Source: Nitzschia sp. pyKryTriq1 (lineage: Eukaryota > Bacillariophyta > Bacillariophyceae > Bacillariales > Bacillariaceae). Taken from it: a stretch of 64,000 bases of DNA. Each line of letters begins with the position of its first letter. Position 1 is the first letter of the stretch. Below the pieces are notes generated by a model, which saw nothing but the letters and a program-made list of their open reading frames with translations, was not told where the DNA came from and searched no databases. The stretch is from the NCBI GenBank assembly GCA_956465555.1, contig OY101121.1, positions 2,256,722-2,320,721 on the forward strand, in the 5' to 3' direction. Shown in pieces: positions 34,447 through 63,805 of this stretch. Both the position numbers and the translations under genes were made by a program.

Positions 34447-37400
34447 ATGCCTCCCAATAATAAACGAGGAGGCTCGACTATGAAAAAAGAAGACCAAGAG
34501 AGCTCGGATAGTTTCATCGACAATCCCAACCCCGAAGCAGTCGCTCCTACTACTACTACTACTACTACTACTGCTGCACCTGCTGTTGCTCCGTCGGAAC
34601 AATCACTCCGCGCTCGACGGACCAATCCTTCGGTAGCTGCTGTATTCGCTGCTGCTGCCAAGAGTACAGGTCGAAGTAGCAATACTCTCAACAGCAGTAA
34701 CAACAACAACAACAACACCAGCAACAATATGAGAGCAGGAGACGCGTCGTACGATGGACAAAGTCATGATGATCATAATAATCATCATGATGATTTGAGT
34801 CTGGTGGCGAGTGAAGATGACGATTATGATGAGGATGGGACGATGGATGGTCAATCGTCGGCCGGAGGTTCGGCGAATGACTCGAAACGTGCCAAAACGG
34901 CACCCGTCGATCTCGTGAGAAAAGAAACGCGTGCGGTGATGATTTTACGGTACATGATCTTGACCGTATTGCTGGCGACGGCCACACTCGTCTCGATTGG
35001 TACCTTTCGATGGGTCGAAAACGGCGATCATGATCAAGATTCCAATACTAATAATGGCATGGCTAGTTCAACCGCAGCAGCATCATCATCATCATCCTGT
35101 GGGTGGAATAATGGAGAAGATCTACAAGATGCCTATGCACAAGCCTTGGAACAGAATCTCATCCAAGCGCAGGTGGCACGATTCATGGCAGCCTTTACGC
35201 TGAGTGCCAGTTTTACCAGTGTGGCGTTGGTACAAGGAGGCGATACTACTACTGGTACGAGCAGCACCTGGCCCTATGTGACGATTCCTCATTTTGATGC
35301 CCGTGTGACGGGTCTATTGGAATCGTCCGGAGCGACCCAAGTACGATTGGCACCCGTAGTGTCCTCGGCACTCCGAACGACCTTTGAAGAATACGCCACA
35401 GCACAACAATTGCAAGAATGTTCTTCCTGTCCGGCCGTGACTCAAATTATGGATCCCAATACTGGACTACCGCTCGATTCACGAGCAGCACCCGAGATGG
35501 TTCCCATTTGGCAAGTATCGCCCTTTACGACCGAACCGATTCTCTTGCAAAATCAATTGAGCCACGCTCCCGATGCCGAAGCGATTCGTCGAATGCAAGA
35601 TTTGGGAGCGGGAGTCTTGTCGGATATCCAATTCCTCCTCGATAATAGTGCTGCTACTGGTGCGGATGATGATGATGAGATTCCTACCGTCACACTTTTT
35701 TATCCCGTCTTTTCTGATTTTCAACAAATCGACATGGCGGGTGCGATTAGTTTGGTCTTTCCATGGTCCGATATACTCGAACGGGCTCTTCCATTCGATG
35801 TATTCTTGGATATTCCTGCTGCTGGTGACAATGATGACGCATCGTACTTTTCCATCTTGTTGGAATCGTGCAGCACCACTATCATTTCCTTTGCCATTCA
35901 AGAGCAAGTATCAAGTACCAATAATGGTAATGGTGGTGGTGGTGGAGGAGGACCGACCTTGTCGTATACTGGACCCATCAACGAAATACCGACCGTCGTT
36001 CAAGAAGCGTCTGTCGTCTTTGAATTGCCCGGAGCGTATCTCTATGGAGACTTTGCCGAGCCTCTTGCCAATGATGGGGTTTGCAACTACAAAGTTTGGG
36101 TTGCTCCAACCTCGGTAGTCAATAGTGCTGCATCCGGCAATAATACTGACAACAACAGCGGCGACTCGAACAAAAATGTCGTCTATACCGGTATCGTGGT
36201 TGCCCTCTTTGCTGTCTTGTTGGCGCTCTTTTTGATGTACGACTGGATGGTCGAAAAACGTCAATCGGTGGTCGTCAACATTGCGACGAAATCCAGTGCC
36301 ATTGTCGAAAACTTATTCCCAGCCCAAGTGCGGGACCGCATGTTGCAAAATATGCAAAATACCAAAAAAGATAATGCCAATGGTGGAGATGGCACGGGCG
36401 ATGGGGGCGGTGGAAAGAATGGAATCAATGACAGTGGTGGTGTCTCCAAGAATGCGCTCCCGAATGTGGCGGGAGGTGCTCCCGGACCCGTCTCGGTCAA
36501 ACAATTCTTGACCACGGATGGAGGAGATATGAATAATCTATCCAGTCCACCCATTGCCGATCTTTTCCCCAATACGACAGTCCTCTTTGCCGATATTGCC
36601 GGATTCACGGCCTGGTCCAGTCAACGGGATCCTCCTCAAGTCTTTACCTTACTCGAAACACTCTATCGAAGTTTCGATGTCATTGCCAAGAAACTCAAAG
36701 TCTTCAAAGTCGAAACGATTGGTGATTGTTACATGGCCGTCACGGGCTTGCCCAATCCTGACGATGCCCATGCCGTACACATGTCTCGATTCGCTTATCA
36801 ATGTTTGGTCGGAATGAAGGAATTGATTCGAGAACTCGAAGCCATGTTGGGACCGGGAACATCCGATTTGGCCTTGCGAGTGGGATTGCATTCCGGGCCC
36901 GTTACGGCGGGTGTCTTGCGAGGTGAAAAGAGTCGTTTCCAATTGTTCGGAGATACTGTCAATACAGCGAGTCGTATGGAATCGACCGGTATGAGAGGAA
37001 AGATTCAAGTGGTACGTCCTTATATCAGTGCATCATGCTGGTGGAATGGTTGGATTTGGCCTTTTTTGTTTGGTTGGTTGGTTGGTTGTTTGGTTTCAAT
37101 CATCTGATGGTCTCGCTCACCGTGCTCTCCCCCCCCCCCCCCCCCCCTCTATTCGTGCAGTCGCAAGAAACCGGAGACTTGCTCATGGCGGCCGGAAAGT
37201 CGCATTGGCTCAAACCTCGAGACGAAGCCGTAGTGGCCAAAGGCAAGGGCGAACTCAAGACGTATTGGTTGGACCCCACCAAGAAACGACGAACCACCAA
37301 GGGAGGAAAGGATATTCGGGTCGCCCCGGAAATTTCCATCAATGGAAACTCTGTCGAAAAGCCCATGTCGCCTGGAGACATACCCTTTGACGACAAGTAT

Positions 37401-38651
37401 GCTCGGCTCATTGACTGGAACGTCGATGTCTTGTTGCATCACTTGGCCCGAGTCATTTCGAGCCGAAGCCGAAATCCCTCCAGAGGATCTTTGGTCAATC
37501 ATACCAGCGAAGTGGCCTTGTTGCCAGCTTCGATCAATGATGTAGCCGAAGTCGTCGCGCTTCCACCGTTTGATCCGGATGCCTCCCGATTCCGTCGAGC
37601 ACGTCCGGATGTCTCCATGCTGCAACAAACACGTGCGGATCTTCATGAATACGTCAAGAGAATAGCCGTCATGTACCGCGATGTCCCTTTCCACAACTTT
37701 GAACACGCGTCCCACGTGACCTTGTGCGCCAACAAGTTGATGAATCGGTTGATCAATTCAGATGAATACGGGACGGAAGAAGAACTCCACAACGCCACTT
37801 TTGGTATTTCCAGCGATCCTCTGACGCACTTTGCCATTGTCTTTGCTGCCTTGATTCACGATGTCGATCACACGGGTCTTCCCAACGCCCAATTGGTCAA
37901 GGATGGACACGACTTGGCAGTCAAATTCAACAATCGAAGTGTGGCAGAACAAAACTCGGTCCATTTGGGTTGGGAAATGCTCATGGATCCTCGTTTTGAG
38001 AGATTGCGCAAGTGTATTTATCAAACCAACGTCGAACGCAAGCGATTCCGTCAATTGGTCATCAACGCGGTCTTGGCGACCGATATCGCCGATCGCAAGG
38101 TCAACGAAGAACGTCAACAAAAGTGGGAGCGTGCCTTTCAATCCCCCAACACGGCCGAATCGGCTCTTCAGGTTCAAGAAGAGATGAACCGCAAGGGGAC
38201 GGCAGTCATCGAACACATTATTCAAGTGTCCGACGTCGCTCACACTATGCAGCACTGGCATATCTATCGTCGATGGAACGAACGTCTATTCCACGAGATG
38301 CACGATGCCTATTACACCGGCAAAGTCACCGTGGATCCTTCTACGAATTGGTACATTGGCGAATTGGGCTTCTTTGACTATTATCTCATTCCATTGGCCA
38401 TGAAGCTGAAGGAATGTGGTGTCTTTGGGGCGTCGGGATACGAATACATTAGCTATGTATTGAAAAACAAGAAGGAATGGGAAAGAAAGGGGCGGCAGGT
38501 CGTACAAGAAATGGTCCTTCTGTACAAGGATGCCGAAGACGAGAATGCCAGTGGATCTTCCTTAGATTCCGATGACGACTACGACTCGGATGATCTCGAA
38601 TACGATTCACCTGGGGACATGTCTTCTTCGGAAGAGGAAGTAGAGGACTAA
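34447..38651 (+). CDS. Receptor-type nucleotide cyclase fused to cyclic-nucleotide phosphodiesterase
   Basis: Exons are 34447..37011 and 37161..38651, 1351 residues; the 149-bp intron joins RGKIQV to SQETGDLL inside the cyclase domain. A disordered N-terminus precedes TM1 (about 163-188). An extracellular region of about 390 residues follows, then TM2 (about 580-602), a class III cyclase domain (about 702-890), and a class I PDE domain (about 1015-1280) with an acidic tail. Cyclase metal ligands are present: Asp716 in FADIAGF and Asp760 in TIGDCYM, plus the NTASRMEST motif. Glu756 (VETIGD) is the guanine-type residue, but Gln832 sits where guanylyl cyclases usually have Cys. The PDE metal site is intact (HNFEH at 1033, HDVDH at 1088). 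The same polypeptide could make and destroy a cyclic nucleotide, probably cGMP, under control of an extracellular signal. Such fusions are known from diatoms, where one has been linked to sexual signalling. Confidence 0.9.
37129..37147. repeat. 19-base poly-C tract in the cyclase-PDE intron
   Basis: An uninterrupted C run just before the acceptor (ATTCGTGCAG, ending at 37160) serves as the pyrimidine tract. Its length may be unstable or subject to sequencing error. Confidence 0.85.
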
Positions 38652-42827: not shown

Positions 42828-44615
42828 TCAACCGTCCTTTTTGATAGTAGGTCCTCCACTACCATCATCATCATTACGCTTTTTGGGGAGTGAACCAGCA
42901 GTGCCACCACCGCCCCGAAGATAATCTGTCAAGGAGCTATCGAGCAGCCGCCCTTGTGCAAGAACTTCTGCTGCTGCTGCTGCTGCTGCTGCTTCTACTG
43001 CTGCTGCTTCTACTGCTGCTCCTTGGCGGGGTAAGGCAGTGATAAGATTGTGTCGTCCCGACAAAAGCTCCTCTGTTTGGTGCATAAACTGTTGCTGTTG
43101 TAGCGAGCGCATGAGAGCCATTTGCTGTTGTTGCTGTTGCTGTTGCTGTTGTTGCTGATGGTTGGATTTTTGCTGCTGCATTAAAAAAGAAGATGATGCC
43201 CCCCCCATCAAGTTGTTGGTTCTTCCAAAAATGCCCAAACCACCACCACTTGCTGCCAGAAGCGAATAAGAACGAAGAGCTTGCTGCTGCTGGTCTTGAT
43301 TAGAGAGTGCAGGCATGGCCGTACGAGGAGTAAGAATGTTGTTTGCGCCGAGCAAGGTGCCCGAAGCACCAAGTCCCTGAAGTGGTGATCCTACCAGCAT
43401 CTGCTGGTGCTGGTGGTGCTGCTGTTGTAGTCCTAGCAAACCACCTCTAAAACCCTGAAGCGGCGACCCTGCCATCTGCATTAGCAAGCTTTGTTGCTGT
43501 TCCAGCATCCTTCGTTTCAACTCAGCACCACCACCCCCACCAAAGGACGAGGATGCTCCCATCAGTCCTCGCCCGCCAGCACCACTAAGCAGCAATTGAT
43601 GTGCCAGAGCGTTTCGACCCCGCTGCTGCTTTTGTTGCTGCTCTACCGCCGCCATCTGTCGAAGAATATCCTGAGCGTTTCTTCTCGTTTGAGATTGCTC
43701 TGAACTGAGGACATCATGCTGGTGCTGGGATGGAAGTTGCTGCGAGCTGGCTAGTAGTATTCTTGCTCTTCGTCCAGGGGAATCAACAATGGTTTTTGAA
43801 TCACCAGCATCAGCACCACCACCAGACTTGTTTTTCTTTCCACGCAAAGCGTGGCTAACTTTCTCTCTTGCCTCTCCATCACCAGCTTCGACCCAGTAAT
43901 CTTCACCATTGTCGGCACGTCGAAGAAAGCGCGCCGATTCGCCCCATCTACCCCCCTGCATCCCTTTCACAATCTCTTCGGCGATAGCAAGCTTATCATA
44001 CCTCCGAGACGCGACGTACTCTGCCTTGAAGCTATTGACAACCTCTCGTAACTTTTGGTTTCCACAGTGGAACTGATAGGGTTTTCCTCTACCAAAAAGC
44101 ACATCCGAAGGTTCAGGATTGATAATATATTTGTTGCTGCTTTGATCCATAGTAGTAGTACTAGCGGGCGGCATTGCCGAGGCTGCCATTGCAGCAGCAG
44201 CAGCAGGACGAGCAGCAGCAGCAGCAGCAGCAGTACTGGGAGAAGAATTATTGTGGAGATGACGAGGATCCTTCTCCTGCTGATTCTCTGTTGGAGATTT
44301 CTTCTCACCACCCAAGAAGGCCGCCCCCGACTCCTCGTCGGTATCCTTCAACTTTATCTCCCGGTCTTCTTGTTGTTTGCTTCCCTCGTCTTTTTGATTC
44401 AGCTTGTTGTTGTTCTTGCTGCTAGTACCTGTAGTAGTAGCTCGAGGGTCGCCACCCGACAACATCGTCAACATCATGCTCTTGACTCCTGCTGATGCTC
44501 CGGCGGTTTGTTTGTGCTGAACACGTTCTTCCTCTTTCTCCCTCAGAGAAGGATCTGGTTGGGCAATATGCGGCTTCGCGGTCGCCGCCTCTTCTTGTTG
44601 CTTCTCGGACATCAT
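42828..44615 (-). CDS. DUF6824 domain protein (copy 2), Gln-rich
   Basis: I chose the ATG at 44615 (MMSEKQQEEA), giving 595 residues; the open frame runs further upstream (ATG at 44738) through sequence that looks like 5' leader. The DUF6824 domain lies at about residues 163-258: EPSDVLFGRGKPYQFHCGN, KLREVVNSFKAEYV, DKLAIAEEIV, GGRWGESARFLRR and REKVSHALRG. It is preceded by Ala runs and Lys/Glu-rich sequence. It is followed by a long Gln/Leu/Gly-rich region with QQQQ runs, repeated AGSPLQG/VGSPLQG motifs and an Ala run, resembling glutamine-rich activation domains. A transcription-related role is plausible but inferred. Copy 2 resembles copy 3 in architecture more than copy 1. Confidence 0.76.
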   Translation of the reverse strand: MMSEKQQEEAATAKPHIAQPDPSLREKEEERVQHKQTAGASAGVKSMMLTMLSGGDPRATTTGTSSKNNNKLNQKDEGSKQQEDREIKLKDTDEESGAAFLGGEKKSPTENQQEKDPRHLHNNSSPSTAAAAAAARPAAAAAMAASAMPPASTTTMDQSSNKYIINPEPSDVLFGRGKPYQFHCGNQKLREVVNSFKAEYVASRRYDKLAIAEEIVKGMQGGRWGESARFLRRADNGEDYWVEAGDGEAREKVSHALRGKKNKSGGGADAGDSKTIVDSPGRRARILLASSQQLPSQHQHDVLSSEQSQTRRNAQDILRQMAAVEQQQKQQRGRNALAHQLLLSGAGGRGLMGASSSFGGGGGAELKRRMLEQQQSLLMQMAGSPLQGFRGGLLGLQQQHHQHQQMLVGSPLQGLGASGTLLGANNILTPRTAMPALSNQDQQQQALRSYSLLAASGGGLGIFGRTNNLMGGASSSFLMQQQKSNHQQQQQQQQQQQQMALMRSLQQQQFMHQTEELLSGRHNLITALPRQGAAVEAAAVEAAAAAAAAEVLAQGRLLDSSLTDYLRGGGGTAGSLPKKRNDDDGSGGPTIKKDG

Positions 44616-49132: not shown

Positions 49133-51076
49133 CTACTCCGAAGATCCTCCTCCGTTACCCGAGGACGTGCTGGTGGATGCTTCCCGAGAAGACGCGGATA
49201 CAAGAGCTTGCAAGAGAGATTTGAGAAGAACTGGATTGGTATTGTTCATTGCTGCTGCTGCTGCTGCTGCTGCTGCACCTCGTTGGTGAGGATTCGCGGC
49301 CGAAGCCATCATGGTAAGCGTGGGTAGTGTCATTGTGCTGGTGGTGCTTGGTGTCGCCGCCGCCGCCACATCCGAGGATGGTGGTGGTGGTGGTGCTTGA
49401 TGTTGTTGCTGTTGTTGTTGTTGCTGCTGCTGCTGGGAAGTGACCTGTTGGAGTAGTAAGGCAAGCAACGCTTGAATCAACGGGCCCGAGGTGTCATTGT
49501 TGTTGGTAACTTGTTGTTGTTGTTGGCGAACAGGAGCGACAGCAGCAGTATTCGAGGGTTGGTAGTGTTGCTGCTGCTGCTGCTGCTGCTGCTGCGGTTG
49601 GTATTGCTGTCGCGAGTTGTTCGTCTGAGTTTGCTGGTGCGGTGGAACAGTAGGTGCTGCTGCGGTTGCTTGCAGAACCTGTCCCAGCAAAGAGCCAACA
49701 AGTGTTTCTTGGAGTTGTGAGGATGGTCGGTTCTGCTGTTGTTGCTGCTGCTGCTGCAAAGCTAGAACCGATAGAAGAAGAGTTTGTATGGACGGATCCA
49801 GTACCGATGTCGAACTTGGGGTTTGTGGCGCTGGTTGCTGCTGCGGCAGCGGAGGCATTGGTGAATGATAATGGTGAGAAGGAGGAGGACCACGTTGCCC
49901 TCCTCCTGTTTCTGTTGCGGCTGCTGCGGGTATACCCCATCCGCCACCCCCAAGCATTGAACTCATCATTGCTGCGTTCCCCCCTGCTTGTTGTCCAAGA
50001 CTTTGCGCTGCTGCTGGTGGTGCTGGTTGTGGTGGTGGCTGGCCCTGCTGTCCTCCTCCTCCTAGTACCGAGGAAAGAATACCCATTGGATTGAACGCTT
50101 GCTGATGCTGCTGCTGCATCATTTGGCTCGGATGATGATTCGAGGACGAAGGGTTGTTCATCATGAATTGTGATAAAGGATTCACCACTTGTTGCTGTTG
50201 CTGCTGCTGCAGTTGCATCATCATTGGCTGCTGCTGAGAAAAAGGGTTGAAATTCATATTCTGTTGCTGTTGTTGCTGTTGCTGCGGAGCCGACGACGCT
50301 ATGAGAGAACTGAGGAATGGAGTCCAGTCTTGATCCCCCGAGTTTCTTGGTTGCGAGACGGAAACCATCGTTGGAAAGCCCACAGGCAAAGCAGAAGAAG
50401 CAGGAGCATGAGGACGGTTATTGTTGCTTCGCCGTCCAGACGCGGCTGGGTCTTCACTAGTATTACTAGAGCCACTGGCGGGGTTGCGGTCGGAAGAAGT
50501 TTTGGAAAGACTGTTGCTCACTGGAGCCGCTCGCTTCCTTGTTGACGATTTAGTAGGGGTGCTTTTGCTCTTTTGTTTGGGTGCTGCTCCTTGTTGTTGT
50601 TTGGCCAACTGTGATTGTGACTGTGATTGTGACTGTGGTTCTTGCTCGCGCCGACGCAATCCATGACTTATTTTCTCATAGATGAACGCTCCGTCCATTT
50701 CCTCCCACTCTTCTGGCTCCCCATCTTTACCACCCTTGTCCCCCGCGGCTTTTCCCACTCGATTCAGAAACCGCAGACCCTTCTTTCGGACTTCCCGGAC
50801 AATCCTCTTGATGAAGCGCGACTTGTCATGCCTTGGCAATGCGTGGTATTCGTCTCGATGGGAGTTGAGAATGGCATGAAATCGAGCGTTTCCGGGGTAG
50901 TTTTGAATCGGGATCCCGCGGCCACAGCGAACTTCGTTTACGGCGTGCGAGGAAGAGTGCGGCTGTTGCTGTTGTTGCTGCTGCTGCGGCTGCTGCTGTT
51001 GCGGTTTGGCCGCGGGTTGCTTACTACTAGTAGCAGATGCCGACGAGTCACTATCCCCCGAGTCGTCTTTGGACAT
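49133..51076 (-). CDS. DUF6824 domain protein (copy 3), poly-Gln
   Basis: The ATG at 51076 (MSKDDSGDSDSS) gives 647 residues; the frame is open to 51253, but that part looks like untranslated leader. The DUF6824 domain sits at about residues 44-145: NEVRCGRGIPIQNYPGNARF, NSHRDEYHALPRHDKSRF, RIVREVRKKGLRFLNR and YEKISHGLRRREQ. The remaining 500 residues are dominated by Gln runs (up to about 11), Pro, Asn, Ala and Gly, like low-complexity activation or condensation-prone regions. A QSQSQSQSQ repeat and a basic TPTKSSTRKRA stretch follow the domain; the latter could be a nuclear localisation signal. A transcriptional role is inferred. Confidence 0.76.
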   Translation of the reverse strand: MSKDDSGDSDSSASATSSKQPAAKPQQQQPQQQQQQQQPHSSSHAVNEVRCGRGIPIQNYPGNARFHAILNSHRDEYHALPRHDKSRFIKRIVREVRKKGLRFLNRVGKAAGDKGGKDGEPEEWEEMDGAFIYEKISHGLRRREQEPQSQSQSQSQLAKQQQGAAPKQKSKSTPTKSSTRKRAAPVSNSLSKTSSDRNPASGSSNTSEDPAASGRRSNNNRPHAPASSALPVGFPTMVSVSQPRNSGDQDWTPFLSSLIASSAPQQQQQQQQNMNFNPFSQQQPMMMQLQQQQQQQVVNPLSQFMMNNPSSSNHHPSQMMQQQHQQAFNPMGILSSVLGGGGQQGQPPPQPAPPAAAQSLGQQAGGNAAMMSSMLGGGGWGIPAAAATETGGGQRGPPPSHHYHSPMPPLPQQQPAPQTPSSTSVLDPSIQTLLLSVLALQQQQQQQQNRPSSQLQETLVGSLLGQVLQATAAAPTVPPHQQTQTNNSRQQYQPQQQQQQQQQHYQPSNTAAVAPVRQQQQQVTNNNDTSGPLIQALLALLLQQVTSQQQQQQQQQQQHQAPPPPPSSDVAAAATPSTTSTMTLPTLTMMASAANPHQRGAAAAAAAAAMNNTNPVLLKSLLQALVSASSREASTSTSSGNGGGSSE

Positions 51077-52286
51077 GATGGTGACTGCGGATGAGCAAGT
51101 TGTCTCCTTTGTATGGGTTGGATATGTTATTGCAGGTACCGGTAGTGAATAATGATGATATGGTGCTGATGTGAGCAGGTCATTGTACAGTAGGAAGGTG
51201 AAGAGCTGTTTTTTGTTGATGCTTTTGAAAAACATCCCGTACAGTACTTGCACTCATCGAGAACAGCACGATTTTTGCGCGTTGTGGACCCAAAAAGCGC
51301 TGTGAGTTCGCGTATGCGTTGTTGCGTAGAATATTCGCGTGCATGCAGGTTGTTGCTTCGTGTGGATGATGAATTATTATTGATTGCACTGACGTCGCTC
51401 GGGACAGCAGCTGTGCGACAGCTGTCTACCGTACAACTACAGTAGAGTCAGTACTGAACGCCAAGCAAGGACGCAGAATGACGTTCTGTTGGTCAATAAC
51501 GACAGCAGCTGTCAATACTTAGGGAAAAGAATACCAGTACCGGTTCACTGGCGAACAATCGCCAACGATTCAAACTCCCCGCAAAACTGGTACAGTAGTA
51601 ACAGTACCGGTGCCTATCGTGAGACAAGCACTACCAGGTACGGTACATCAGCAGTAACAGTAACAGTAACAGTACCAGGTACCAGGGTACCGTGCGTACT
51701 GTGCTTCGGTACCAGCTACTGTATCGTCGTTCCCGAAGGCAAGAGCAAGGCAAGAGCAGAAATAAAATAATAATGATCATAGACATTGAAGATGATCTAC
51801 CGGTACTAGAGATTGATGATTCTTCTTCGCCGCGCCTTACCAGGTATGGATAATGTGGAAGTTTCTCTTGCTGGAAGATCTCTTGAGCAGAGGAGGCATT
51901 TTACTTCGGCGCACATGATAACGACGACGACTTTCCCACAGGAATTTTAGCCAGCAACGAGCAGAGTATGTTCACTCTCTCTCTCTACTAGTAGAGTAGA
52001 CGAGTAGTAGACTACAAAACGGCAGCAGCAGCAGCAGCAGCACATACACAGACACAGACCCACATACACAGACACATACACATACACATACACATACACC
52101 CATACACATACACAGACACAGACACATATACAATAGACTCATACACAACGCGCATACGAGTACACAACATACAAACATCCCTCGCCCGCCCAACACTATT
52201 AGGTATATTCGTACAGCACACAGCACGACTATTATCCCACATCCTATCTTTTCCTGAATCATCATCTTGTACCGTTATTGATCATC
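51077..52286. other. Gene-free divergent spacer with microsatellites
   Basis: Between the DUF6824 gene (minus) and the xylulokinase gene (plus). It holds TACCGGTA at 51137 and 51798, AGTAAC repeats near 51653-51680, CTACTAGTAG at 51985 and an ACAC/ACAT tract at 52041-52130. No exon is seen. Confidence 0.6.
52041..52130. repeat. ACACAT/ACACAG compound microsatellite
   Basis: Imperfect hexamer repeats of ACACAT and ACACAG lie in the presumed 5' leader or promoter of the xylulokinase gene. Confidence 0.8.
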
Positions 52287-60280: not shown

Positions 60281-62936
60281 TTATTCAGTATTATTATTTG
60301 TCGTCGATTCTTCAGGTGAGAACGCCCCCGAGACACCAACAACAGCAGACCTGCGTGGCAAATCGTGGCCTTCGTGCTGAACTTGAAACATACGTGGCAC
60401 GACAAAGGCAGCAGCTGACATGACGGATCCCCACAACACACCGATAGCCTGCAGTATCTTCTTTCCAGATCCGTCCATATCCGCAACGCTATGCACAACG
60501 AGCAATATGGTACCCACCAAGGCGATATTGTACATGGCAAGCAACATTTGCTTGGCTTCCCCAAACTGGTCGTCCATGTTGCGTTGCAAGTAGGCCAAGA
60601 CACATCCAACAACCACCATTCCAGCTTCCAACACAATCTGCACAATGAAAAAGGCATCCGTTTCCGACTCACAAACAATGTGCCTCGTGAAGCCTGCTTC
60701 GTCGGCCTCAATGATCTCCGTTGGTTTCGGTGGATCAACAAAGGTAAACGCGAGCAAGATTATAACCTGCGCCACAATGGGTGGCAACGTGTACAAAGCT
60801 GCTTGTGTATTGGTGATCGTTGTTCTGCGAAAGGAAGCTTGGGTTAACCGATACATGCGCCAAAGCTTGACGAATAAAGGTGCCAGCGCCACAACGAAGA
60901 AGAGATGAAAGAACCACATGCGCAGCAGGCACGTAGTTTTTGTATTCTCCCCGAGTAAGGTGAAGGTACCAGAATTCAACAAACCACAGCCAAACACAAA
61001 TGCACATGTGAACCTCCAGTCCGCAAACGCAACGGCGCGGACCTGGCGTTTGCTGTACAAATATGTCCAAAAGAAAGCACAGACCCCCACGCCTGCTAAT
61101 CCAATTATAATCATGATCACGAAGAAAGTGTCGCCCGGAACAATGGTGTCATCGCTCGCTTCAGTGGCAGAAGAGACGGTGAGGATCCGCCATTTTAGGT
61201 TGGCCGTTCCTTGACTTGGTTCAAAAAGCGTTGCTTGGCATACAAAAATACCGGTCGCGCCGACATCATCTGAGTCCTTGACAAACAAGAGCTCCTCGGG
61301 ATATCCCGCCTCCTTTTGCAAGTAAAAGGCTTGTTTTATAGCCTCGTCTTCGCGCGAACTTCCGATATCGACAATAGCTCGTCGTTCTGACACACAGTCT
61401 TTCGAATCGTATTGCACTGTAGTAGGACAGAGTTGAGTTGGATCCGACGCCAAATATTGTGCCGAAGCTTGGGTCCCCGTCGACATGCCAATGAGGTAGT
61501 GCGGCTCGGCATCTTCGTAAATGGCCACAAAAGTATCGGTATCCTGGTAGTTATCAACCAGAAATGTGGTAAAATCCTCAACTAGCACCATATATATGCA
61601 ATGATAAATGGATAGAATATAAAGAACAAAAGTGAGATTGATGAAACACTGAATGCTGCCTGATGTTTGGTTGTTGTGCTCACTTACACTTGTAGTCTAC
61701 CGCCAATACACCATCAAAGACTTGACCTCGTTCTGTTGGCGTGTAGATGGGATGAACGTGGGTCAAACCGATATATCCAGTCTCGTATAGGTAGGGGTCA
61801 CTCCAATGCGGTGTTTGCCGATCCTTTGCATCGCGATACCAGGGACGGTACCGAGCGTCGAATTCCGGCGAATAAAAAGCACCGGTAAAGGTATCATTAC
61901 AAACAGCACCGTTCCCCCCACAATAGGCATATTCCCCCACCAACTCCCTCTGTACTGGTGTCTTACCATCTTCGTAGACACAGGTGTTGCCAGGTTCTCC
62001 GCTTCCATCAGTCGCAAAGGCGTCTCCTGGTGTTTGCGTGACTTCTGCCAATTCATTATAACAAAAATAGGAGCTTGGGATGTATCCCAAACCAGTAGTA
62101 GTAGTAGTAGTATTGTCTGAGACATGTAGAGGCTGTGCGGTCTCGATCGTGTACTTGCGGCACCACTTTTTCCGTTGGAGGCAGCTTTCTTTGCTGATCC
62201 CGCCCGCCGTTTCCAAACCTTCCGGTGTTTCGCAGTCGAGCGTTTGCGAATCCATATCCGGACAGGGTTCATACAGATCACAACCACCCTCGTTATCGTT
62301 ATCGTTATCGTCCTGGCATTCATAAAACCTGATATAGTTGCGACCGGGTTCCAAGATACAATCCACTGGTTCTCCTGAGCGAGGTTCGATACAACTCTTC
62401 AAATGCTTTTCAAAGGCTGGATCGTCCACCGAGTAGCCACTGTTCCCCGGTTCTCGATAGATGGCGAAGTGATAGCCGTTATCATAACCCATTTCATGGC
62501 CGTCTTCCGAAGAAAAAACTATCAGATTGGACGGAAAGCTCGTGATGAGCTTGAGGTAGAGATCGCGATCGCTGGGTCCCAGACGTCCGGATTTGAAACC
62601 CCCCTTTTCTCGCAGCTCTTTTAAAAAGCCGTTAATCTCTTGCGGGGGAGCCAAGAAATCAAGCAATTGATCCTGGATTCGACGTTCGACCTCGTAATTA
62701 AAGTAACTAGCTGGTTCTCGATGATGATTCCGGTGCCGGTACTCGTACTCGTAGTCGCCTGCTGATGCTTGTTCTTGTTGACTGTCGGCAGCAGCATGCT
62801 GTGCACCCACAAAAATGGACCCACACATGATGCCCACTATGAGCAGGAATGCCTCCTTTGCTGCGATTAATTGGCTGGTCCCTATTCTGCTGGTGCTGCT
62901 GCTGCTGTTGCTCCGACTATTGCTGCCGCCACTCAT
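60281..62936 (-). CDS. CACHE-domain 7TM receptor (class C GPCR-like), two exons
   Basis: Exons are 62936..61688 and 61581..60281, 849 residues; the 106-bp intron (GTAAGT...GTGCTAG, phase 1) makes a Phe codon and joins AVDYK to EDFTTFL. The chosen ATG at 62936 lies before the signal sequence FLLIVGIMCGSIFVGA; 62996 is the alternative. The extracellular part (about 100-550) has a dCACHE ligand-sensor pattern: DARYRPWYRDAK, TGYIGLTHVHPIY, GVLAVDY and repeated Cys pairs. Seven membrane spans follow (about 565-805), with class C GABA-B-like features: CLLRMWFFHLFFVVALAPLF, then LWRMYRLTQASF and PIVAQVIILLAFTFVDPPKP. The cytoplasmic tail is short. It probably senses an extracellular small molecule and signals through a G protein; the ligand is unknown. 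Confidence 0.85.
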
Positions 62937-63805
62937 ATTGTATGATATGATCAGACGACTATGGTTGCTATGCAGCAGAAGTACCAGTATCAACATCAAT
63001 TCGTTGAATGAGAGATACTATGTATGAGAGATGATAATATGTTGCGCGATGAACGATGATGAGCCTATTATTGAAGATCTTCTCGTGCAACTACAGTACT
63101 TATTGTACGCAGTATTGCTGGTACTCGTAGCATTATTTCATACAGTTTTAGTTTTGGGAGCGCCCGCACGCGTGCGCGCAAGACCAAGACGACTGACTCG
63201 ACTCGTTCCCTCTCGCCCCAACGCATCGCATATCTCCCTCTCTATACCGGTATATTATATCTAAGATGTATCCTCTAAAACCACAAATTAGCTTCTTGAG
63301 CGAGGAGCAAGGAAGAGAAAACGATGTTCAGAAATCTCTTTTTCGATCCTTCTGTTGTTATCGTGAGAGAACACATACTAATACTACTAGTACTACTAGA
63401 CTGAGTGAGTCTACTACGAGTATATAGTACTACCGGCAACGAAGAGCTTGGACTATAAGTAGACTGGCATTTGTCCTCACGGCTTACAGTACTCCTAGTA
63501 GAAGACTACTACAAAGAAGCCTATTCAAATAGTAGTTTGACAAATAAAAGACATGCATCTAATATCGTTCTTATTTTTAAAACAGGTGATGGTCTATTTT
63601 CGAAACGTTTGGCGTTGCTGGTGTTGGTTGTTAGTACAAACATAATTATATGCAATATGGTACATCGCATGCTAGCTATAGCAAATGGGTGAAAAAAGTT
63701 CGCCAAGAGGTCATCGCATTGTGTGTGTGTGTGTGGTCTATATGGTGGAGAGGAGAATGGCGGCGGCGGCGGCGGTCTATCATCTCTCGTCGTTTGCAGG
63801 ATGAA
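62937..63805. other. Gene-free spacer
   Basis: Upstream of the 7TM receptor gene and past the end of the next minus-strand gene. It holds TACCGGTA at 63245 and a TG run near 63720-63736. Nothing else is seen. Confidence 0.5.

Follow-up and report, generated by a model that had tools for sequence, protein, structure and literature searches.

A clade-wide glutamate at the purine-binding glutamine site in receptor-type cyclase-phosphodiesterases of the diatom Nitzschia sp. pyKryTriq1

RESULTS

Gene model and protein layout

The window analyzed here, a 64,000-nucleotide stretch of Nitzschia sp. pyKryTriq1 DNA (assembly GCA_956465555.1, contig OY101121.1, positions 2,256,722 to 2,320,721, forward strand), carries at positions 34447 to 38651 a gene that joins a two-span receptor module, a class III nucleotide cyclase, and a class I phosphodiesterase (PDE). 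The gene lies on contig C7 of a genome of 40.65 Mb in 20 contigs. Eight matches to the silicon-transporter family PF03842 (best E, 6.9e-266), which we take to be a diatom marker, fit a diatom host.

Two overlapping open frames, 34447..37107 and 37035..38651, are joined by an intron at 37012..37160 into a stop-free product of 1,351 residues. Positions 756, 832, and 1256 of the spliced protein are E, Q, and E, exactly as numbered in an earlier sequence-only reading of this DNA. The splice appears sound because paralogs run open across the same junction, where KIQV followed by SQETGDLLMAAGK in the present gene corresponds to RIQASQSTVDYLLTAGK. Pfam assigns PF00211 to exon 1 (E 6.8e-42, 143.6 bits) and PF00233 to exon 2 (E 2.3e-29, 103.2 bits), and a search of the whole protein at E ≤ 0.001 returned no domain besides these two; together with the two membrane spans, they bear out the combination of receptor, cyclase, and PDE in one polypeptide that the sequence-only reading had described. 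The order of parts (short N-terminus, transmembrane [TM] helix, ectodomain, TM helix, cyclase, and PDE) is that of the diatom guanylyl cyclase/phosphodiesterases (GC/PDEs). The features, in window coordinates, are as follows.

34447..37011, + strand: exon 1, residues 1 to 855; cytosolic low-complexity N-terminus, TM1, CHASE-like ectodomain, TM2, signalling-helix-like segment, and most of the cyclase
34933..35010, + strand: TM1, residues 163 to 188 (Kyte-Doolittle scan)
35128..35886, + strand: CHASE-like extracellular sensor domain, residues 228 to 480
36172..36255, + strand: TM2, residues 576 to 603 (Kyte-Doolittle scan)
36256..36366, + strand: putative signalling-helix-like segment, residues 604 to 640 (motif scan, AIVxxLFPxxVRDR, also in paralogs)
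36565..37274, + strand: class III cyclase domain, residues 707 to about 893, split by the intron (PF00211 at residues 707 to 855; C-terminal limit set by eye)
36712..36714, + strand: Glu756 codon, base-recognition residue 1
36940..36942, + strand: Gln832 codon, base-recognition residue 2 (Cys in canonical guanylyl cyclases)
37012..37160, + strand: intron, 149 nucleotides, phase 0, GTACGT..GCAG, with a poly-C tract near its 3' end
37161..38651, + strand: exon 2, residues 856 to 1351 and stop; cyclase end, linker, PDE, and acidic C-terminus
37689..38492, + strand: class I PDE catalytic domain, residues 1032 to 1299
38241..38243, + strand: His1216 codon (Asn in PDE4 and in the genome's animal-type PDE)
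38265..38267, + strand: Tyr1224 codon, opposite a PDE4 Tyr
38361..38363, + strand: Glu1256 codon, replacing the invariant purine-binding Gln

Both metal sites are intact, as had been claimed: D716 and D760 are present in the cyclase, along with the Asn/Arg pair N839/R843, and H1033, H1037, H1088, D1089, and D1213 (HxxxH...HD...D) are present in the PDE.

The PDE purine pocket

Glu1256 lies opposite the glutamine of SQVGF in PDE4B, whether the single sequence or a 30-sequence profile is aligned, and so replaces the hallmark purine-binding Gln of class I PDEs. The sequence-only reading had placed it there by eye. The genome was sampled through its exon-level matches (58 to PF00233 and 102 to PF00211), with DNA read at all 58 of the former and at 98 of the latter; sites were scored with profiles grown from the gene's own cyclase and PDE domains, and counts for families this large are lower bounds. 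Glutamate occupies the 1256 site in 54 of the 56 PDEs of GC/PDE type. It is found in 47/47 PDE sites that follow a cyclase and also in 7 sites that have no upstream cyclase match. Nearby position 1258 varies among 11 residue types in the 54 Glu sites, so the constancy of the glutamate is not due to chance.

The two remaining copies are neighbours on contig C3, at 918121-920700 (L084 and L132) and 921030-923600 (L078, L094, and L133). They read WFNNQIGF and WYSNQSAF, have no nearby cyclase match, and contain long low-complexity inserts inside the catalytic domain; the family hidden Markov model aligns their Gln to the Glu column (256 and 209 bits). Histidine is present at site 1216 in 53/53 Glu-type genes read there and in both of these Gln-type copies. 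The animal-type PDE of the genome, L001, has Gln (DSQIGF) at the 1256 site and Asn at the 1216 site.

A PDE tree built with the 36 Glu rows of sufficient length separates all of them from the C3 pair and L001 at a single branch, with a support of 99 in the Shimodaira-Hasegawa-like approximate likelihood ratio test (SH-aLRT). The split holds with or without L001; a tree without the C3 copies is unresolved, and the Gln rows are long branches whose exact placement is unsure. The PDE L010, one of the seven sites that lack an upstream cyclase match and a frame of 995 residues with no other Pfam domain, keeps the glutamate and falls inside the Glu group, and it may therefore have lost its cyclase.

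Most Glu-type PDEs keep the metal residues: H1088 and D1089 are each present in 49 of 53 and D1213 is present in 50 of 53, where the gene at C7:199831 was read twice at 1213 and 1216 and its exon-edge reading was dropped. A PDE-only cluster at C2:3239750-3259761 (L074, L076, L079, L085, L093, L095, and L097) has kept the glutamate and lost metal residues, with H replaced by R or S and D by A or G; judging from these residues, its members are possible nucleotide-binding pseudo-PDEs.

The cyclase base-recognition residues

In phmmer alignments, E756 and Q832 lie opposite the Lys and Asp of the second cyclase half of adenylyl cyclases 8 and 9. In a further alignment (A2), the Q832 column holds the cysteine of the cyclase L031, which itself aligns with the cysteine of GC-C and CYG12, and the earlier placement of Gln832 at the usual Cys site stands. 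The canonical guanylyl E/C pair is half present, with Glu at the first site and Gln rather than Cys at the second, and for this reason we file the domain as a class III cyclase with a predicted GTP preference and not as a canonical E/C enzyme. One proposal for guanylyl cyclases has guanine recognized by the Glu at its exocyclic amine and by the Cys at its carbonyl, and adenylyl cyclases have Lys/Asp (PMC2576301; this and the other papers cited by PMC number are drawn on from excerpts). A Glu/Gln pair keeps the acceptor and can also offer an NH2 donor, which makes GTP the likely substrate if the residues are a guide. A literature search on Gln at this cyclase site returned nothing relevant, and the excerpted text of the 2c-Cyclop paper holds no statement on these residues.

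Glutamate was read at site 756 in 57 of 58 cases; the odd reading is an out-of-register exon end, and the true site of that same gene is also Glu. At site 832, 62 cyclases were aligned, 3 without motif context were dropped, and the 59 that remain have Gln (45), Gly (10), Cys (3), or His (1). Among the 44 with a downstream PDE, the residue is Gln in 43 and His in 1; the 15 without a PDE have Gly (10), Cys (3), and Gln (2). The last two, L041 and L046, retain a receptor-type frame and Gln832 and have no PDE match nearby. A cyclase tree of 58 rows, computed with the 832 column removed and one short row left out, has a branch (SH-aLRT 98) that separates the 45 Gln rows and the His row from the other rows.

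The His belongs to L114 (C9:1952499-1953226), the sole PDE-linked cyclase without Gln, where it sits in a divergent SKFHIFGK context; this copy is perhaps decaying. By eye, the weak cyclase match L116 (E 2e-6) carries Lys at the first site and Asp at the second, so the genome may hold an adenylyl-type pair elsewhere. One set of four RYG-type cyclases is found both at C1:4438472-4604758 and at C3:3301074-3462537 with identical aligned cyclase domains, and these two regions are either a large segmental duplication or an uncollapsed haplotype.

The ectodomain

The predicted model of the ectodomain has a CHASE fold between the two TM helices, and Foldseek comparisons of this model gave modest TM-scores of 0.44 to 0.52 with root mean square deviations of 5.4 to 9.0. 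A paralog at C7:2448677 exceeds the PF03924 (CHASE) cut-off with an E value of 3.3e-8, and 3 of 11 family ectodomains match PF03924 at E ≤ 1, the best at 2.7e-9. Alignment by hhalign to the CHASE domains of the genome's own histidine kinases gave a probability of 81.5 and an E value of 1.1e-5 over only 100 columns.

Clusters, searches, and neighbouring genes

Six more PDE sites of GC/PDE type lie within about 160 kb of the gene, in C7:2320501-2451790, and the three best matches to its ectodomain are in the same region. Three cyclases in the genome each precede a tandem pair of PDE sites, all with Glu (C4:1716130/1717342, C6:2551091/2549656, and C7:2323176/2320961). Elsewhere, peptide-pattern searches of a collection of viral contigs matched 1 stretch with the single PDE and 19 with the PDE profile, and the profile matched 50 stretches in a collection of genome contigs; none of these matches was confirmed, in collections where no further diatom or algal genome turned up. 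Motifs of a similar kind may occur in other algae. The exact degenerate pattern for RFQLFGDTVN, with CGN arginine codons only, had no match in the genome contigs.

Other genes in the window, all on the minus strand, are the following.

42828-44615, - strand: DUF6824 gene (domain of unknown function)
49133-51235, - strand: second DUF6824 gene
60281-62996, - strand: class C G protein-coupled receptor (7tm_3, E 4.5e-39)

The frame adjoining the class C receptor has a weak PDC/Cache sensor match below the cut-off, and the two together are perhaps one receptor gene.

DISCUSSION

The preferred explanation and what speaks against it

The sequence-only reading had suggested that Gln832 and Glu1256 are paired changes, which could mean matched specificity. 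The counts given above do not sustain the idea that the pair is special to this protein, and point instead to both residues being an inherited signature of the fusion family. The same reading had counted against itself the case that these substitutions are universal in well-characterised GC-PDE enzymes; a universal glutamate does hold for the cyclase-linked PDEs of this genome, and the term "well-characterised" does not apply as far as the excerpted papers go, which describe no enzyme assay of a diatom GC/PDE. Its observation is confirmed, its interpretation is partly supported, and its caution about purine choice was well placed.

The residues and trees are most simply read as an ancestral Gln, with His1216 already in place, and a single origin of Glu that preceded or accompanied the spread of the cyclase fusions; the two Gln-type PDEs have no nearby cyclase, so the glutamate may have arisen with the fusion. 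His1216 is a second fixed pocket difference from PDE4 and may have made the Glu change tolerable. It is not a compensation for Glu, since the C3 copies combine it with Gln.

We consider it probable that the gene encodes a diatom receptor-type GC/PDE in which a cGMP-making cyclase and a cGMP-removing PDE carry inherited unusual residues. In this account, a ligand would bind the CHASE-type ectodomain between the two TM helices, and the signal would pass through the signalling-helix-like segment to the cyclase, which would act as a dimer, gated by the ligand, and would most likely make cGMP. Glu756 would read the N1/N2 edge of guanine, and the amide NH2 of Gln832 would replace the Cys SH as donor to O6. 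The attached PDE, with its two-metal site intact, would most likely remove the same cGMP locally, Glu1256 accepting from guanine N1-H/N2-H and the older His1216 serving as a possible donor to O6/N7; the outcome would be a self-limiting cGMP pulse. A bolder version, which we regard as possible but doubtful, makes the glutamate of this diatom PDE lineage a carboxylate guanine reader beside the older histidine, acquired with or just before the cyclase fusion and holding the PDE to cGMP with no "glutamine switch" involved; the cyclase-PDE genes, more than 40 in number and many with CHASE-like ectodomains, would then form a cytokinin-receptor-like array of self-terminating cGMP sensors.

Several results weigh against the cGMP account. 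The best sequence matches of the PDE are PDE4 enzymes, and Tyr1224 resembles PDE4, which is cAMP specific. The PDE4 tyrosine at this position orients the purine Gln. His1216, the proposed partner of the glutamate, is already found in both Gln-type C3 PDEs. The glutamate persists in seven or eight copies in which a metal residue at 1088, 1089, or 1213 is gone (one of the eight, C4:2702850, lies near an exon edge and is possibly misread), which means that Glu may serve binding or structure. In PDE9, the Q453E mutation raises the cGMP KM 25-fold, from 0.113 to 2.8 μM, with kcat about halved, and raises the cAMP KM 2.5-fold, to 1.2 mM (PMC3069055); given the unequal losses of affinity, Glu alone weakens cGMP binding in the PDE9 frame. 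For the sensor, the PF03924 match of the ectodomain is 21.9 bits against a cut-off of 25 (E 1.7e-4), for which reason we call it "CHASE-like"; a longer query of 443 residues gave no CHASE match to PF03924, a profile search of solved sequences gave none either (best E, 0.1), and the ectodomain model is of only moderate confidence (predicted local distance difference test score, 71.7). Finally, all family counts come from one genome, and conservation across species rests on published papers.

The PDE9 mutant still cleaves both nucleotides and prefers cGMP 29-fold, and its authors argued that the Gln is not a nucleotide switch (PMC3069055). The PDEs of the CAPE proteins carry Thr or Asn in place of the Gln, and that of Marchantia, with Thr, is active and prefers cAMP (PMC8115329, PMC5159850). 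Judging from these two active enzymes, a PDE without the Gln can still be active; by analogy the present PDE is likely active, with a selectivity that is not readable from E1256 alone.

Alternative explanations

The PDE9 comparison also bears on a fairly unlikely alternative, in which the glutamate makes the PDE a low-affinity or regulatory enzyme that drains cyclic nucleotide only when its local level is high or, in some copies, binds it without hydrolysis. The raised KM and halved kcat of Q453E would, by analogy, suit such a role, as would the copies that keep Glu after losing a metal residue and the three cyclases with two PDE sites behind each; the metal residues, however, are all intact in this protein and mostly so in the Glu-type family. 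Also unlikely, in our judgment, is that the cyclase and PDE changed in concert, as a matched pair serving one nucleotide specificity. The near-perfect association of Glu and Gln832 in linked domains would be expected of such a pair, as would the position of both Gln-type PDEs outside the Glu clade and away from any cyclase, and the Gly or Cys in 13 of the 15 cyclases that lack a PDE; the two changes may thus go back to the fusion. The Gln832 rows and the Glu rows, however, each sit behind a single branch, so that each change counts once, is not replicated, and cannot show co-adaptation. The two residues also persist apart, Gln832 in two cyclases without a PDE and Glu in seven PDE sites without a cyclase, and an ordinary nucleotide would suffice for a Glu/Gln cyclase pocket.

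A cyclase that makes cAMP, alone or together with cGMP, joined to a PDE that is dual or cAMP directed, as in Marchantia CAPE, seems very unlikely to us. The best solved matches are adenylyl cyclases 8 and 9 and, among PDEs, PDE4, and Gln832 could also accept from adenine N6-H; the Glu at 756, where adenylyl cyclases have Lys, and the different domain order of CAPE (PMC8115329) argue the other way. An artefact of wrong splicing or misalignment is scarcely credible: the junction was deduced from the DNA, but E1256 and Q832 are each encoded within an open exon, and the same residues recur in dozens of paralogs, some of them open across the junction.

Relation to known systems

The preferred assignment, a diatom receptor-type GC/PDE, has close published counterparts. 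Seminavis robusta Sro991_g228730 and its relatives and a Pseudo-nitzschia multistriata homologue share with the present protein the two TM helices, short cytosolic N-terminus, extracellular stretch, cyclase, and PDE, and there are several such genes per genome (PMC4726125, PMC8027222, PMC5485032, PMC6688387). The two-TM GC/PDE of Seminavis rises after pheromone, with a predicted use of cGMP, and its guanine-binding residues are described as conserved except for two (PMC4726125); eight up-regulated GC/PDEs of the same topology were reported in Seminavis as sex pheromone induced (PMC8027222), the Pseudo-nitzschia homologue was mildly regulated (PMC5485032), and receptor cyclases, some with a PDE, were linked to bacterial exudates (PMC6688387). 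As excerpted, the Seminavis and Pseudo-nitzschia descriptions name neither the PDE glutamate nor a CHASE domain and show no difference from the present protein, and the words "CHASE" and "cytokinin" are absent from the main texts of PMC4726125, PMC8027222, and PMC6688387.

Marchantia CAPE likewise combines a class III cyclase and a class I PDE without the invariant Gln in one membrane protein. It differs in making cAMP, in the cAMP preference of its PDE, and in its order, PDE-TM-cyclase (PMC5159850, PMC8115329), with the PDE N-terminal and the cyclase C-terminal; here the cyclase precedes the PDE. PDE2, PDE4, PDE9, PDE10, and Salpingoeca RhoPDE have the fold and metal site of the present PDE, which departs from them by Glu for Gln at 1256, His for the Asn of PDE4 at 1216, and an identity of about 20%. 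The predicted ectodomain fold resembles those of AHK4 and PcrK, both of which, unlike the GC/PDE protein, are histidine kinases. Dictyostelium ACG reportedly has no PDE, another difference from the GC/PDE protein. ACG does share with it the combination of CHASE and class III cyclase (PMC5447177).

Biological significance

The gene is an ordinary member of the known GC/PDE family with a clade-wide departure from the textbook PDE pocket. The GC/PDE architecture was already known; what appears new, within the open-licence literature searched, supplements excluded, is the recognition of the PDE glutamate as marking the clade and the assignment of the ectodomain to CHASE. The Gln counts as a class I PDE hallmark, and what it contributes to substrate choice is disputed; a natural Glu lineage together with Gln-bearing sister genes on contig C3 offers a ready comparison for the choice between cAMP and cGMP. 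Diatom GC/PDE receptors have been tied to mating pheromone and bacterial cues in Seminavis, and the CHASE assignment gives these receptors a concrete ligand-pocket hypothesis.

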